The position numbers and the translations under genes are program-made. Positions 8,671 to 30,131 of a DNA stretch of 30,656 bases are shown here, piece by piece (the first letter of the stretch is position 1; the number at the start of each line of letters is the position of its first letter). The notes under the pieces are model-generated. The model was given only the letters and a program-made list of their open reading frames with translations, did not search any database and was not told the origin of the DNA. Source of the DNA: a virus; the IMG/VR virus record IMGVR_UViG_3300031951_000836, positions 1-30,656 of that record; one strand, written 5' to 3'.

Positions 8671-9027
8671 TTAGAATACCACAGTCAGCGCTGGAGCTCC
8701 GCTTATATTTATGTTGACCTCAGCCAAATCTCTAGATTCTCCTTCATAAAATGCCACTGACACATCCACCGGATACGTCGTGACTAGAGGAAGAAACAGA
8801 CCTATTTGAGTTCTAATAGTGCTCTCGATCGCTATAGTGTTGAAAGTCAGATCAAAAATGTAGTCTTCTAGGTTCAGCCCGAAATCTTGAACTCCCATTA
8901 CTCTAGACTTCGGAGTAGTCAAAAGACACTCTAGCTGTTGTAACAGAATACTGATGTCATCGTTCAGCTCCAGAGTTGTATCTGAATAACCGATCGAATC
9001 TATAGGCTTACAATAGATGTCTGACAT
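8671..9027 (-). CDS. Baseplate wedge protein, gp25-like (118 aa)
   Basis: The protein is 118 residues, within the normal 110-140 of gp25/TssE/GpW-type baseplate proteins. The family pattern is visible: an N-terminal lead, a helix (NDDISILLQQLECLLTT), then the loop KSRVMGVQDFGLNLEDYIFD, which corresponds to the conserved turn where related proteins have an EPR-type motif. A second helix (AIESTIRTQIGLFLPLV) and a C-terminal beta hairpin follow. gp25 binds the first sheath ring and the wedge core, and nucleates sheath assembly. The gp6-like gene starts 14 bases later. A TATAAATA octamer 16 bases before the ATG suggests that this gene opens the wedge operon. Confidence 0.9.
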   Translation of the reverse strand: MSDIYCKPIDSIGYSDTTLELNDDISILLQQLECLLTTPKSRVMGVQDFGLNLEDYIFDLTFNTIAIESTIRTQIGLFLPLVTTYPVDVSVAFYEGESRDLAEVNINISGAPALTVVF

Positions 9028-9043: not shown

Positions 9044-9051
9044 TATTTATA
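9044..9051 (-). promoter_or_regulatory. T4-type late promoter octamer (TATAAATA)
   Basis: The minus strand reads TATAAATA here, an exact match to the T4 late promoter element recognised by the phage sigma factor gp55. It lies in a 62-base gap, 16 bases before the ATG of the gp25-like gene, which is normal late-promoter spacing. No phage sigma factor gene is in the window, so the use of this system is inferred. Confidence 0.55.
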
Positions 9052-11382: not shown

Positions 11383-11400
11383 TGCACATTTTGGTTGTTC

Positions 11401-11408
11401 TATTTATC
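11401..11408 (-). promoter_or_regulatory. Late-promoter-like octamer (GATAAATA)
   Basis: The minus strand reads GATAAATA, fitting the NATAAATA form of T4-type late promoters with one change from TATAAATA. It sits directly after the U-tract of the terminator at 11409-11443 and 18 bases before the ATG of the 426-aa gene, where a new promoter is expected. The same octamer also occurs by chance inside genes, so this is a candidate. Confidence 0.4.
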
Positions 11409-11443
11409 CAAAAGAAAAAGGGAGAAGATCGAACCTTCTCCCT
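11409..11443 (-). terminator. Intrinsic terminator after the S1-like gene
   Basis: On the minus strand a perfect 9-bp stem (AGGGAGAAG pairing with CTTCTCCCT, 7-base loop) is followed at once by TTTTCTTTT. This is a textbook rho-independent terminator for leftward transcription, about 30 bases after the TAA of the S1-like gene. It has a weaker T-tract on the plus strand, so it acts mainly in the gene direction. Confidence 0.85.
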
Positions 11444-11454
11444 CTTGTCTTTCA

Positions 11455-11469
11455 AGGACATTTTGTCCT
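11455..11469 (-). other. Small perfect stem-loop between S1-like stop codon and terminator
   Basis: The sequence AGGACA-TTT-TGTCCT (plus strand) forms a 6-bp stem with a 3-base loop, 5 bases after the S1-like stop codon and 11 bases before the main terminator stem. It may protect the 3' end of the transcript or bind a protein. It is too short to claim a function. Confidence 0.4.
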
Positions 11470-11474
11470 ATCGA

Positions 11475-12584
11475 TTAAGCTTTTCGAAGAACTATCTTCC
11501 TAGAAGCCTGTTCGATTTTACTAATGATAACTTCTACGTCCTCACCTTCTTTGAAGTCAGAGTCTTTAGGGAGTTGAGAAGAATGCATCAATCCAGAAAT
11601 ACCTTTTTCGATCTCTACAAAGACGCCATAGTTAGTGATTTTGACAACCTGTCCTATGACGAGCTGCTCTGGAGAAAATCTGTTCTGGATGTCATCCCAT
11701 GGAGAGACTTCTTTTTCTTTCTCAGTCAAAAGTATTTTGCTGTCTGAGATGATCTGTTTAATTCTGAATTCTACAGATCGACCTGGTTTGATCAAACCAG
11801 CTTTGAAGTCTTCTTCGCTCTTCTCTATTTCAACTACTGGAATTAGACCGGTTAAACAATCTTCAAATTCTACGAAGATACCAGCACCGCTGGTTCCTGT
11901 CACGAAACCTGTTCTCCAAGAATCTATCGTCTCTGTTACTTTTTCGATCTTAGAAGGGATCATCGTCTTCAGATAGTCTCGGTGAGAAACTACAGGGATG
12001 TCTCTTTCTTTCGAATAGTTGACAGGCACTACGATGATCTCTTTACCTAAGAGACTTGCGAAGTCTACAAGCTTGTTCATTCCGGCTAAAGAACCAGGCA
12101 TGAAACATTTGATCACATCAATCTCTACGAAGTAACCTCCGTGGATGAGTTCGGTGACTTTGGCTCTGTAACCTACTTTTTGACCGATAGAATCTACGAT
12201 CTCTTGCATCTTACGCTTGTTGATAGCATCAGTGAAGCTCGCTTCGTAGTTACCGTTATGGCCGAATTTTAATTTAACTGGAATGTGATCGCCTACTCTG
12301 AGATCTTCTAAACCTCTCTCTTTTCTCATGTTCATGTAAGCGTCTTGCTTACCGTCCAAGCTGAGAATCACATGATCAGGTCTCATTGAGATGACCTCAA
12401 GCGTTCTGATTTCGTTTTCTTGTGGTGGTTCTTTGATCTCTAATCCCTCATAGAATCTGAGGAGTTCAAGCACGTTAGAATCCTGGGAAAGGATTTTTGT
12501 TCCTCTTGGAAGATCGACCTCTACTGTTACTGTGCTGAAGGGATCTTGGTCGTCTTGTCGGAACGTTACTTTTTGTTTGGGCAT
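11475..12584 (-). CDS. Ribosomal protein S1-like RNA-binding protein, four S1 domains
   Basis: The protein is 369 residues with about 55 leading residues and four S1-type OB-folds at roughly 58-118, 136-203, 222-289 and 306-369. The last is canonical (GQVVKITNYGVFVEI, GLMHSS, FKEGEDVEVIISKIE, IVLRKA). The third has VTGTSGAGIFVEFEDCLTGL and the second TELIHGGYFVEIDVIKCFMPG; the first is divergent. Bacterial bS1 has four to six such domains and brings mRNA to the 30S subunit. I see no clear N-terminal segment of the kind E. coli S1 uses to bind uS2, so ribosome binding is unproven. A role as an RNA chaperone or translation factor for phage mRNA is inferred. The gene has its own 74-base leader and an intrinsic terminator, and lies in a block of tail genes, which is unusual. 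Confidence 0.88.
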   Translation of the reverse strand: MPKQKVTFRQDDQDPFSTVTVEVDLPRGTKILSQDSNVLELLRFYEGLEIKEPPQENEIRTLEVISMRPDHVILSLDGKQDAYMNMRKERGLEDLRVGDHIPVKLKFGHNGNYEASFTDAINKRKMQEIVDSIGQKVGYRAKVTELIHGGYFVEIDVIKCFMPGSLAGMNKLVDFASLLGKEIIVVPVNYSKERDIPVVSHRDYLKTMIPSKIEKVTETIDSWRTGFVTGTSGAGIFVEFEDCLTGLIPVVEIEKSEEDFKAGLIKPGRSVEFRIKQIISDSKILLTEKEKEVSPWDDIQNRFSPEQLVIGQVVKITNYGVFVEIEKGISGLMHSSQLPKDSDFKEGEDVEVIISKIEQASRKIVLRKA

Positions 12585-21929: not shown

Positions 21930-22434
21930 AGTATTCAGTGATGAATTTTTTTGTTTTGTTTTTTACAGCTTCTTTGATCGAAGAATCGTCTAGTTGATCA
22001 ATTATGTATTGATACAAATCTTCGTATATCTCGTCTCCGAAAGAAGACTTGAGAACTTCTATCATCTCTTTCTTAGGCACTTTAACAGAAAATGAAATCT
22101 CCAGCTCTTCAGCTTCTCTATTTTTTTGTGCCATTAAGAGACGCATAACTGGACTCTGTAAAACTTCTTTGACCGGAGGCGCTGTATACGCAGGAGCCGG
22201 TGTAAATTGAGGCGCTTGTTCAATTGCAGATTCTTCTGCGATCTTTGCCTGATGTTCAGGAACCTCTATGAGATATTCTAACAGGAGGTCTGCGTTTATT
22301 CTTTTCCCTGATTCAAAGACTACAAAATTTAGACCATTTTCGTCTAAATTATCTTGTACAGTTTCTATTCTACCAGTGTAATCACCCTTGACCCATTGGT
22401 AATATCTGTTTTCATATTGAACTAGCTCACCCAT
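21913..22434 (-). CDS. Unknown protein with SH3-like N-terminus (173 aa), start codon inside a hairpin
   Basis: The protein is 173 residues. The N-terminal 55 look like a small beta barrel (YYQWVKGDYTGRIETVQDN, LNFVVFESGKRINADLLLEY). A Pro and Ala rich linker (QFTPAPAYTAPPVKEV) follows, and then a helical acidic and Lys-rich domain (VPKKEMIEVLKSSFGDEIYE, DDSSIKEAVKNKTKKFI). I do not recognise the family. The gene is the first after the giant fibre gene (39-base gap), and its ATG lies within a 15-bp stem, so its translation is probably controlled. It overlaps the 103-aa gene by 17 bases. An assembly factor for fibre or hub is possible from context only. Confidence 0.72.
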   Translation of the reverse strand: MGELVQYENRYYQWVKGDYTGRIETVQDNLDENGLNFVVFESGKRINADLLLEYLIEVPEHQAKIAEESAIEQAPQFTPAPAYTAPPVKEVLQSPVMRLLMAQKNREAEELEISFSVKVPKKEMIEVLKSSFGDEIYEDLYQYIIDQLDDSSIKEAVKNKTKKFITEYYESNS

Positions 22435-22454
22435 AAGTCTTATAGATGAGCTAG
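22422..22454 (-). promoter_or_regulatory. RNA hairpin covering the start codon of the 173-aa gene
   Basis: The 33-base element has two 15-base arms and a 3-base loop (GAC in the mRNA). In the leftward mRNA the arms give 13 Watson-Crick and 2 G-U pairs. On the plus strand the same two positions are A-C mismatches, so the structure fits the mRNA strand only. The ATG at 22434-22432 lies in the 3' arm next to the loop. No U-tract follows, so it is not an intrinsic terminator. Confidence 0.7.
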
Positions 22455-28400: not shown

Positions 28401-29574
28401 CGCTAGTTCCATCTGTACCGACTCCGCTCGTTCCTGATGTTCCTGAAGAACCGTCATCACCTGAAGTTCCACTAGTGCCGTCTGTTCCGACTCCGCTCGT
28501 GCCTGAAGAACCGTCGTTACCTGAGGTTCCAGAAGTTCCATCTGTACCGACTCCGCTCGTGCCTGAAGAACCGTCATTACCTGAGGTTCCACTCGTTCCA
28601 TTTACACCTGAAGTTCCACTAGTTCCTGCAGTTCCGCTAGAACCAGAAGTTCCATCTCCTGAAGTTCCGCTAGAACCAGAAGTTCCATCTCCAGATGTTC
28701 CACTAGTTCCATCTGTTCCAAATCCACTAGTTCCTGAAGAACCGTTTATTCCTGAAGTTCCACTTGTTCCATTTACGCCTGAAGTTCCGCTTGTTCCATC
28801 TACTCCGCTCGTTCCTGAAGAACCGCTAGTTCCTGAACTTCCTGCAATACTGACACCGGAAGTTCCAGATGTTCCACTAGTTCCAGTCTGTCCGCTCGTT
28901 CCACTTGTTCCATTTGTTCCAGACTGACCACTGCTTCCGCTAGTACCTTCAGTTCCACTAGTTCCGCTTGAACCGTTATTGCCGGAAGTACCGCTAGTGC
29001 CTTCAGTTCCTGAAGTACCGCTCGTTCCGTTGCCGCTGGTTCCTGCAGATCCGCTAGAGCCTGCTGTTCCGCTAGTGCCATTTGTTCCACTAGATCCAGA
29101 AGTTCCGTTGATACCACTAGTTCCAGATGTTCCGTTGATACCACTAGTTCCAGATGTTCCGGAAGTTCCAGATGTCCCATTGCTACCTGAAGTACCGCTC
29201 GTTCCTGATGAACCACTAGTGCCGTCAGTTCCTGACGTTCCACTAGAACCGGAACGACCTGAAGTTCCAGATGTTCCTGGGATTCCGCCTCCACCAGTAC
29301 CTGACGCCCCTCCGATAGGATCCCATTGATCTGGGTTCCCTGGGACGCCATAGTAGAAAGTCCCTACTGTGGTTGTGGTGTTAGCCCTGAACCAACCCAG
29401 ATAAGAATCACCTGCGGTGTTGTAGACAATTTCTTTGTAGACGATATTGCCTTCGACATACTGACGGGTCTCTGACCAAGGGTTAGAGACCATCTTAAAG
29501 TTGTCATCGACTTCAGAGTTGAAGAGCTCACGCCCTAGCTCGGTTCGAAACTTGATATATTCTTGGAGATTCAT
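22474..29574 (-). CDS. Giant modular collagen-like tail fibre (2366 aa)
   Basis: The N-terminal 90 residues carry a virion-attachment pattern seen in T4-like phage fibres (SEVDDNFKMVSNPW, then RQYVEGNIVYKE and GWFRANTTTT). From residue 97, about 1,300 residues are Gly-X-Y triplets, mostly Gly-Thr-Ser and Gly-Ser-Ser, in six tracts. Five globular modules interrupt them at about 650-772, 875-960, 1073-1272, 1448-1620 and 1745-1882, and a C-terminal domain of about 245 residues (2122-2366) ends the chain. The fibre should be a trimer with a long collagen-like shaft, with host binding by the modules and the C-terminal domain. Modules 1 and 5 are related, as are 2 and 3. The start ATG at 29574 lies in a weak 6-bp hairpin (29572-29586), 6 bases after the 183-aa stop. 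Pro is scarce, so stability may come from Thr/Ser glycosylation, which is inference. Confidence 0.9.
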   Translation of the reverse strand: MNLQEYIKFRTELGRELFNSEVDDNFKMVSNPWSETRQYVEGNIVYKEIVYNTAGDSYLGWFRANTTTTVGTFYYGVPGNPDQWDPIGGASGTGGGGIPGTSGTSGRSGSSGTSGTDGTSGSSGTSGTSGSNGTSGTSGTSGTSGINGTSGTSGINGTSGSSGTNGTSGTAGSSGSAGTSGNGTSGTSGTEGTSGTSGNNGSSGTSGTEGTSGSSGQSGTNGTSGTSGQTGTSGTSGTSGVSIAGSSGTSGSSGTSGVDGTSGTSGVNGTSGTSGINGSSGTSGFGTDGTSGTSGDGTSGSSGTSGDGTSGSSGTAGTSGTSGVNGTSGTSGNDGSSGTSGVGTDGTSGTSGNDGSSGTSGVGTDGTSGTSGDDGSSGTSGTSGVGTDGTSGSSGTSGVGTDGTSGSSGTSGNGTSGTSGTSGDAGTSGTSGINGSSGTSGVGTDGTSGSSGTSGVGTSGTSGTSGDAGTSGTSGDDGTSGTSGENGSSGTSGTSGVGTDGTSGSSGTSGVGTSGTSGTSGDDGTSGTSGTSGDDGTSGTSGADGSSGTSGESGTDGTSGTSGESGTDGTSGTSGSDGTSGTSGSDGTSGSDGTSGTSGSDGTSGSSGTSGTSGSDGTSGSSGTAGTSGSDGTSGSSGTAGTSGSSGVSGALAGKWTFNGAAVPPSSGSFSANGVTFDSLTTTQINYTSVVPNASWYNFFSSLVTHNASGGSWYLRIERPTDPTAFGLYLVSASSLGGTALVISSLTLVDGTSTALQQTALYVLSFQQKAISGTSGSSGTAGTSGSSGTAGTSGESGTSGSSGTSGASGSSGTAGTSGESGTSGSSGTSGTSGESGTSGSSGTAGTSGSSGTAGTSGSSGTAGTSGSSGTAGTSGLSSLYIGQSSDNINLSSLTIGGTVNLTVTTGLSYTLAQGVLVAHDVNNSFTGDVISYNPSTGALSLEVTAIYGSGSYTSWTSNLEGAAGGSGSSGTSGTSGSSGTAGTSGSSGTSGESGTSGSSGTSGSSGTSGESGTGGSSGTSGSSGTSGESGTGGSSGTSGESGSSGTSGESGTSGSSGTSGSSGTAGSSGTSGTTPNICVTSSDSIALSGSVCSNYNLSGTSPGGTTGYYMYPSQTLNYSTFNGNITVQWYAYDVPNRFTIRNSSSTIVWTSGWVGNASYAGPWGSSIATANTGTATVAVNNDTYTLQIETSIDSTSDAWALDTICQGGGSSQKTINIVGDTCWVAGQHIIISYNSSNYLIGTVISSTSSTITYNTEEIVGSGTYNSWSIAASGEPGADGLNGSSGTSGSSGTNGTSGASGSSGTSGSSGTSGSDGTSGSSGTSGTSGSSGTSGSDGSSGTSGSSGTSGSSGTSGTSGESGTSGSSGTSGTSGSSGTSGTSGSDGTSGSSGTSGSSGTSGFDGTSGSSGTSGSSGTSGSSGTGGSSGTSGTGGTSGSSGSSGENGISGGQNLFFNQSVSQGVSTYKELGEFTDGAAQSTVAVNLTANQQDVLVGGGFITDPGVPGIPVIPNGLWHAYLYFTKAAVNDNLTVYYVVSSYTTGGTKTTLFTSDVTPIGWDQNNTNPVEIKINSVATTAVLATSDRIIVDLYVNNNDNALRTVTFYTEGTLHYSYIVTTLATPAGTSGSSGTSGSSGTSGSSGTSGTSGSSGTSGISGSSGTSGSDGTSGSSGTAGTSGSSGTSGSDGTSGSSGTSGTSGSSGTSGSSGTSGTSGSSGTAGTSGSEGTSGSSGTAGTSGSSGAAGTSGQSAYGALTGKWVYKQDNNPLTTGQFAASPGNQTPMPIANITALGVYAVDSNGTSWTTVLEYLINAPGGGSGTGDNVYVQIVKASNPAVYGLFNANYILSTTNELTLGRPGGGTWLVSASGSLSVGDECFISFEKAAINGTSGSSGTSGTSGSSGTSGSSGTSGSSGTSGSSGTSGTSGSSGTSGSSGTSGTSGSSGTSGTSGTSGSAGTSGTSGSSGTSGSSGTAGTSGSSGTAGTSGSSGTAGTSGTSGSSGTSGTSGSSGTAGTSGSSGTAGTSGTSGSSGTSGTSGSAGTSGSSGTAGTSGTSGSSGTAGTSGTSGSSGTAGTSGTSGSSGTAGTSGSAGTSGSSGTAGTSGTSGSSGTAGTSGSSGTAGTSGTSVSVSGTSGYIVKFTGSTTIGTTQTPIFEGLNGTSQVITVGGTSQQGARLNIIATSATDIIHGFDNNLNQMFMVENAGSLYNGLLSQEQPSFGIVNRSFFGNFSVASVNRLTLTEYVLSNITANATPTLLKIDGSTTSIPTTTAIQGVVGFSIDVAAANSAGTLGWYHRFTGAIRIASSTGAVIDAITEEVIAEDTSASTWTATVAVNNATGYPRLTVTVTGAASTSIYWSANARLNVLGFGGLP
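23211..23928 (-). repeat. Collagen tract 6 of the fibre
   Basis: About 240 residues of Gly-X-Y (mainly GTAGTSGSSG units) leading to the C-terminal domain. It contains the perfect 36-bp DNA repeats at 23333-23460. Confidence 0.85.
23333..23460. repeat. Perfect 36-bp tandem repeat, 3 copies plus 20 bases
   Basis: Units 23333-23368, 23369-23404 and 23405-23440 are identical, and 23441-23460 repeats the first 20 bases. Each unit encodes four Gly-X-Y triplets. Identity at third codon positions points to recent duplication. Confidence 0.9.
24343..24714 (-). repeat. Collagen tract 5 of the fibre
   Basis: About 125 residues of Gly-X-Y between the fourth and fifth modules; uninterrupted. Confidence 0.85.
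25234..25758 (-). repeat. Collagen tract 4 of the fibre
   Basis: About 175 residues of Gly-X-Y, entered by GEPGADGLNG and left through GENGISGG, with GSDGTSG units. Confidence 0.85.
26359..26694 (-). repeat. Collagen tract 3 of the fibre
   Basis: About 110 residues of Gly-X-Y with many GESGTSG and GESGTGG units; uninterrupted. Confidence 0.85.
26953..27258 (-). repeat. Collagen tract 2 of the fibre
   Basis: About 100 residues of Gly-X-Y, dominated by GSSGTAGTSG and GESGTSG units, with no one-residue breaks seen. Confidence 0.85.
26957..27010. repeat. Perfect 27-bp direct repeat, 2 copies
   Basis: Positions 26957-26983 and 26984-27010 are identical (three Gly-X-Y triplets each) in collagen tract 2, next to the second module. 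Confidence 0.85.
27628..29286 (-). repeat. Collagen tract 1 of the fibre, with Gly-X-Gly breaks
   Basis: About 550 residues of Gly-X-Y repeat, the longest tract. It contains roughly 13 places where one residue is missing (GVGTDG, GNGTSG, GDGTSG, GFGTDG) and one longer break (GVSIAG). Boundaries are by eye. Confidence 0.85.
29102..29155. repeat. Perfect 27-bp direct repeat, 2 copies
   Basis: Positions 29102-29128 and 29129-29155 are identical in collagen tract 1; each codes for three Gly-X-Y triplets including Gly-Ile-Asn. Confidence 0.85.
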
Positions 29575-29579
29575 CTATT

Positions 29580-30131
29580 TTAGATGCTTTTATTCATTAT
29601 CGTCTGTCTTCTAGCTTCCAAGAGTTCAGTCAGATTAAAATAACCTGGGTCTGAATAAATGAAAGCGAACACCGTCGGAAAGAGCTGGACAAACGGGTTG
29701 TACTCGCTCTTGTAACTATTTATCAAACTCGTAACAGACTGCCTGTGGAAGTCAATGCTTCTGTCTATTTCAGCAGTTCTCTGCACGTCAGCTGGGAAAG
29801 TATAGTTCACCGTGAATCCATTGAGGATATCGATGATCCTGATAGTGGCTGAAAAATTAAAAATTTGAAGAGTGCCAGCCACATATTCTACACCGACGCT
29901 GCTCCCAGACATATCGCTGGTAATGTAAGTCGGGTATGTGTTATTAAAATAAGATTTAGCAGAAGCGAAGGTTGTGAATCTCCTCTTGGTGTGCATACCT
30001 GGGGAAAAGCCGTATCCGGCAGAATTCACCCAGTAAAAATCCATACTGATGTCAGTAGGAACCACGCCTATCGATTGTAGGTCGTAAATAAAATTGAGCC
30101 CCAGTTTATAGGAAATTGCTTCAAGATACAA
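29580..30131 (-). CDS. Unknown protein before the fibre gene (183 aa), TTG start
   Basis: The protein is 183 residues. A TAA stop stands directly before the TTG at 30131, and no ATG occurs until residue 30, so TTG is the best start if the helical N-terminus is kept. The first 120 residues are aromatic and beta-like (DISMDFYWVNSAGYGFSPGM, ATIRIIDILNGFTVNYTFP), and the rest is helical (VTSLINSYKSEYNPFVQLF). There is no known motif. A GATAAATA octamer 20 bases upstream suggests that it heads the fibre operon. It may be a virion protein or a partner of the fibre, but this rests on position only. Confidence 0.68.
   Translation of the reverse strand: MYLEAISYKLGLNFIYDLQSIGVVPTDISMDFYWVNSAGYGFSPGMHTKRRFTTFASAKSYFNNTYPTYITSDMSGSSVGVEYVAGTLQIFNFSATIRIIDILNGFTVNYTFPADVQRTAEIDRSIDFHRQSVTSLINSYKSEYNPFVQLFPTVFAFIYSDPGYFNLTELLEARRQTIMNKSI

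Follow-up and report, generated by a model that had tools for sequence, protein, structure and literature searches.

A start-codon hairpin overlapping a putative promoter behind the tail fibre gene of an uncultured phage

Genes and hairpin at the locus

The window, that is, the whole stretch of 30,656 nucleotides analysed here (IMGVR_UViG_3300031951_000836), carries on its minus strand a 2366-aa tail fibre gene with collagen-like repeats (29574-22474), followed by a gene for a 173-aa protein (22434-21913). The fibre gene is the presumed source of a read-through RNA. A promoter of its own was looked for and not found, and its start codon is also fully paired, in a weak 5-bp stem (CATCT-AAAAT-AGATG, 29570-29592).

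A conserved (Y/L)QW(I/V)KGDxxGxV motif is present in the 173-aa protein, which is predicted to consist of an N-terminal SH3/KOW-like barrel and a helical tail. Foldseek returned only weak KOW/SH3-like structural matches, family searches with the protein gave nothing firm, and a nucleotide search of phages and plasmids gave nothing useful. Two scans covering 85,000 genomes of bacteria and archaea detected no relative and give no host assignment. The N-terminus read from position 22434 agrees with that of the relatives (MGELVQYENRYYQW), and by this comparison 22434 is the true start of the gene, rather than a codon further downstream, which the preliminary description had kept in view.

An RNA hairpin of 15 bp with the loop GAC occupies minus-strand positions 22454-22422 (CUAGCUCAUCUAUAA-GAC-UUAUGGGUGAGCUAG), exactly where it had been placed earlier. 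The 15 pairs are contiguous, and two of them are U-G. The 5' arm (22454-22440) is made up of the last 10 nt of a promoter spacer and the TATAA of the -10 box, both described below; the 3' arm (22436-22422) contains UU, the AUG and codons 2-4. The ATG (22434-22432) is fully paired two bases from the loop, its position in the stem having been recognized from the start, and its partner is the UAU of the -10 box. The minimum free energy of 81 nt of the minus strand is -21.1 kcal/mol (z = -3.25), and 2 of 200 shuffles are equally good. Folding the plus strand over this stretch yields -12.4 (z = -0.6), no better than chance, and the two G-U pairs thus orient the hairpin. The earlier argument that these pairs point to selection on the RNA agrees with this difference between the strands, and also with the covariation and the frozen synonymous sites described below. 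Among the 23 gene starts of the window, that of the 173-aa gene has the lowest folding energy (-20.3, the runner-up having -13.0), and its start codon is practically never unpaired.

The fibre stop codon lies a mere 19 nt upstream of the hairpin (not 20, as first given), a proximity that favours translational coupling, in which the stem is opened by ribosomes finishing the fibre gene and, in the preliminary description, by these ribosomes only. A terminating ribosome covers about 12 nt beyond the stop, so the stem is out of its reach. Furthermore, the stop-to-start distance is not constant among the relatives but varies from 33 to 73 nt. Coupling of this kind is highly improbable.

Conservation of the stem

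The closest homologue of the 173-aa gene, in contig L001 (72% protein identity), follows the same fibre and has a stem at the same place, with 13 pairs, a loop of 7 nt that holds a further in-frame ATG, and a z-score of -4.9. All 13 of these pairs are intact, none being broken. The compensatory changes that were to be looked for are present: at pair 8 the A-U of the window became U-A, a double change whose 3' half falls on the wobble base of the Gly2 codon; at pair 9 U-G became C-G by a one-sided change. Sliding the arms in this comparison lowers the pairing to 27-46%; a shuffle control is powerless with two sequences. The stem sequence is common to only the window and L001, which rules out deep-alignment covariation (RNAalifold-style).

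Within codons 1-9 the compensated Gly wobble base is the single difference between the two genes. Codons 3-9 are identical, while 52% of codons 10-72 differ (P = 0.006). Identity with L001 extends to codons 5-9 (22407-22421), beyond the stem, synonymous sites included, for which no reason was found.

Judged by covariation, the hairpin is conserved, and it is a real element under selection. The covariation and the synonymous freeze, together with the recurrence of start-codon pairing in other relatives, support the idea that RNA pairing is under selection and that the start codon has a role in translational control. The translational switch suggested at the outset is thereby supported at the level of sequence comparison.

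The hairpin might instead belong to the fibre message, as a terminator or a site of RNase processing at its 3' end, and overlap the ATG as a result of compaction. A terminator-like hairpin with U6 is indeed found at the equivalent place in the relative L035. The hairpin of the window is followed by UUCAAUAUG and by no U-tract, as had been noted, unlike the terminators of this phage, which carry one (11383-11474). It does not have the intrinsic-terminator form of a G+C stem followed by a U-tract, a terminator scan gave no terminator-like site at the hairpin, and an Rfam search gave no family above the gathering score, with chance-level matches only. For RNase III, 15 bp is a short substrate, and nothing points to an RNase site. 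The conservation of the coding arm, too, speaks against a role confined to the end of the fibre message, and this explanation is quite unlikely.

A promoter motif in the 5' arm

The preliminary description had missed that the 5' arm is also the spacer of a putative promoter, TGAAAC-N17-TATAAG, with its -35 box at 22467-22462 and its -10 box at 22444-22439 of the minus strand. The -35 box is shared with L001 (TGAAAC-N18-TATAAT) and L035 (TGAAAC-N17-TATAAT) and occurs as TTAAAC in nearly all distant relatives. Relatives of the 173-aa protein were gathered from viral contigs, giving 59 that are non-identical, and nearly all of these have TTAAAC-N17-TATAAW in the stretch from the upstream gene to the homologue, with 4-20 nt from TTAAAC-N17-TATAAT/A to the ATG in most. 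A profile built from the relatives' sites peaks before coding-strand gene starts in other contigs, and its -35 variants include TGAAAC.

The window promoter is absent from the list produced by a sigma-70 consensus scan. Its -10 box does not have the final T, and only 4 nt separate it from the ATG, which would require the message to be leaderless. This gap is the main weakness of the promoter reading, since the usual 6 nt would cost the transcript its AUG. The same 4-nt gap occurs in L109 and L111 and is therefore at least a recurrent layout. The predicted promoter-initiated RNA leaves the AUG of the window largely free (unpaired 0.79).

The 68.9-kb genome G001 represents the phage of the window, with the gene at 100% protein identity. 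On its coding strand GAAAC-N16-18-TANAAW has 11 matches, almost exclusively with N17, and 7 of them lie directly 5' of genes (binomial P = 4.6e-8); rearranged -35 words show no such enrichment before genes in this genome. The genes behind GAAAC-N17-TANAAW include a dUTPase/MazG-like enzyme, DNA polymerase B parts, UvsX and DnaB. On these matches the promoter class is that of replication genes, which would suggest early or middle timing. A different motif, ATATATAGA, precedes several structural genes, and TATAAATA occurs at 2 sites and is absent from the hairpin site.

Several other features of these phages were observed. The T4 late promoter word TATAAATA is present at 9044-9051 of the window, shortly before a gene start at 9027. 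Gene starts of this phage have A-rich leaders with no evident Shine-Dalgarno sequence. At L127:4631-4690 (minus strand), also in the window's phage, a complete terminator-like hairpin with U6 comes immediately after TGAAAC-N18-TATAAA and is itself followed by an ATG, an attenuator-like arrangement. The Family B DNA polymerase is encoded in two ORFs (L126:11483-12628 and L126:17297-18706, minus strand) with ribonucleotide reductase genes between them. The gene at 11475-12584 of the window contains S1 RNA-binding domains (Pfam PF00575), and in relatives an S1-like gene has a promoter of the same class in front of it (G009:18130, G010:10645).

The spacer pairs with the start codon through unrelated stem sequences in at least four other relatives, namely L092 (a perfect 16-bp palindrome), L032, L087 and L111, the last of which shares the UAUAA-NNN-UUAUG end with the window. 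Shuffling of the spacer abolishes the fold in the window (z -4.4): none of 200 shuffles was as good there or in L001, L092, L032 and L111, and 2 of 200 were in L087. When spacers were swapped between loci, the own spacer ranked in the top 5% for start pairing at 8 of the 18 loci with a short gap between -10 box and ATG (P = 1.1e-6), or at 7 of 17 if L001 is left out (P = 9.7e-6), and it was favoured at 3 of 30 long-gap loci. By these tests, spacer-start pairing recurs in other lineages. In most relatives, with leaders of 16-20 nt, the start is not occluded. At 18 other gene sites with the same promoter class occlusion is mostly missing, G006:35117 being a weak case, which ties occlusion to the gene downstream of a fibre. 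L035 has this promoter within the hairpin ending in U6, which we propose to be another way of blocking read-through. A 433-aa gene in G009 (L122:16846, minus strand) starts within a hairpin of about 12 bp (GUUGGAAUAUAU...AUGUAUUCCAAC), the 5' arm of which contains the late-like ATATATAAA; a promoter of another class may be used here in the same way.

The strong occlusion of the start would also be expected if the hairpin simply damped translation, or switched it conditionally, on a joint message of the fibre and the 173-aa gene, being opened by an S1-like factor or by temperature, with the promoter as an inactive remnant. The weak -10 box, the short gap and the phage S1-domain gene in the same window fit such a damper. 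Against it, the -35 box, the spacing and TATAA are retained in L001, L035 and distant relatives, and the promoter spacer also serves as the 5' arm in unrelated lineages, whose stems differ in sequence. The damper is a minority possibility that deserves some weight.

An inverted repeat spanning a promoter is a classic form of operator, and the palindrome of L092 would suit a repressor that binds the DNA across spacer, -10 box and start. The repeats are unrelated in sequence between lineages, they include G-U pairs that form on the coding strand only (two in the window, one in L001, several in L087), and the fold is significant on that strand only, all of which makes an operator very unlikely. 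It might also be guessed that the 173-aa product binds RNA and regulates itself; sequence-specific binding is argued against by the unrelated stems of the different lineages.

A possible switch between read-through and promoter-started RNA

The best reading, and a probable one, is an occluding hairpin nested in a promoter, such that the read-through RNA is silent and the promoter-started RNA is translated. The 173-aa gene would have its promoter folded into its start site. In an RNA reading through from the fibre gene, spacer and -10 box would pair with the start codon and the codons that follow, and ribosomes could not start. RNA initiated at the promoter would begin at or next to the AUG, would be devoid of the 5' arm and thus of the stem, and would be translated as a leaderless or near-leaderless message. 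The 173-aa gene would in this way be insulated from fibre read-through and governed by its own promoter of the replication-gene class. From the sequence we infer that this promoter is active, that transcription starts at the A of the ATG, that the read-through RNA exists and is silent, and what the timing may be.

Related arrangements are known. Gibb and Edgell, in 2009, reportedly described the ribosome binding site of mobE of phage Aeh1 as sequestered in a hairpin (cited in PMC3014915). Like the 173-aa gene, mobE is a phage gene nested behind another with its initiation site in a hairpin; it is a homing endonuclease gene and has no sequence relation to the window. In phage T4 the long read-through RNAs of e, soc, 49 and I-TevI hide the AUG or the ribosome binding site in a helix, and the DNA encoding the 5' strand of the helix contains the promoter of e (and of I-TevI), whose transcript therefore does not include the helix (PMC3014915). 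The window resembles these genes in that, by computation, the start region is in a helix on the long transcript and, at the level of motifs (-35 and -10 boxes, N17, -10 box in the 5' arm), a promoter lies where its transcript would not contain the 5' arm. The T4 genes have early read-through silenced and are expressed late; in the window the promoter motif is not of the late type and its class precedes replication genes, which would make late fibre read-through the silenced RNA. Also unlike the T4 genes, the ATG has no visible Shine-Dalgarno sequence, the -10 box is the direct pairing partner of the AUG, and the message would be leaderless.

In Bacillus subtilis, translation of sigG from spoIIG read-through RNA is proposed to be blocked by a hairpin of at least 20 bp that cannot form in RNA from PsigG (PMC5942855), which is the likeness to the switch proposed here. 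SigG is a bacterial developmental gene with a leader and a ribosome binding site, unrelated to the window in sequence and host. In Bacteroidetes, which do without Shine-Dalgarno sequences, structure at the start site tunes initiation (PMC6847099). The principle is already known from the T4 genes and sigG, and the putative leaderless message whose AUG pairs with the -10 box is among the differences here.

More tentatively, and with the odds somewhat against it, a large group of huge uncultured phages may fold a replication-class promoter into a leaderless start, with the -10 box serving as an anti-start-codon. The device would have arisen repeatedly with unrelated stems, and its effect, opposite to that in T4, would be to shield an early or middle gene against late read-through. 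If this is true, a few dozen bases would act as promoter, insulator and translational switch in phages known from metagenomes only, and the principle of T4 e and sigG would extend to leaderless messages. It would also allow testable predictions, for compact genomes that do without terminators, of the genes protected from read-through, and the promoter motif TWAAAC/TGAAAC-N17-TATAAW can be used for annotating this phage group.
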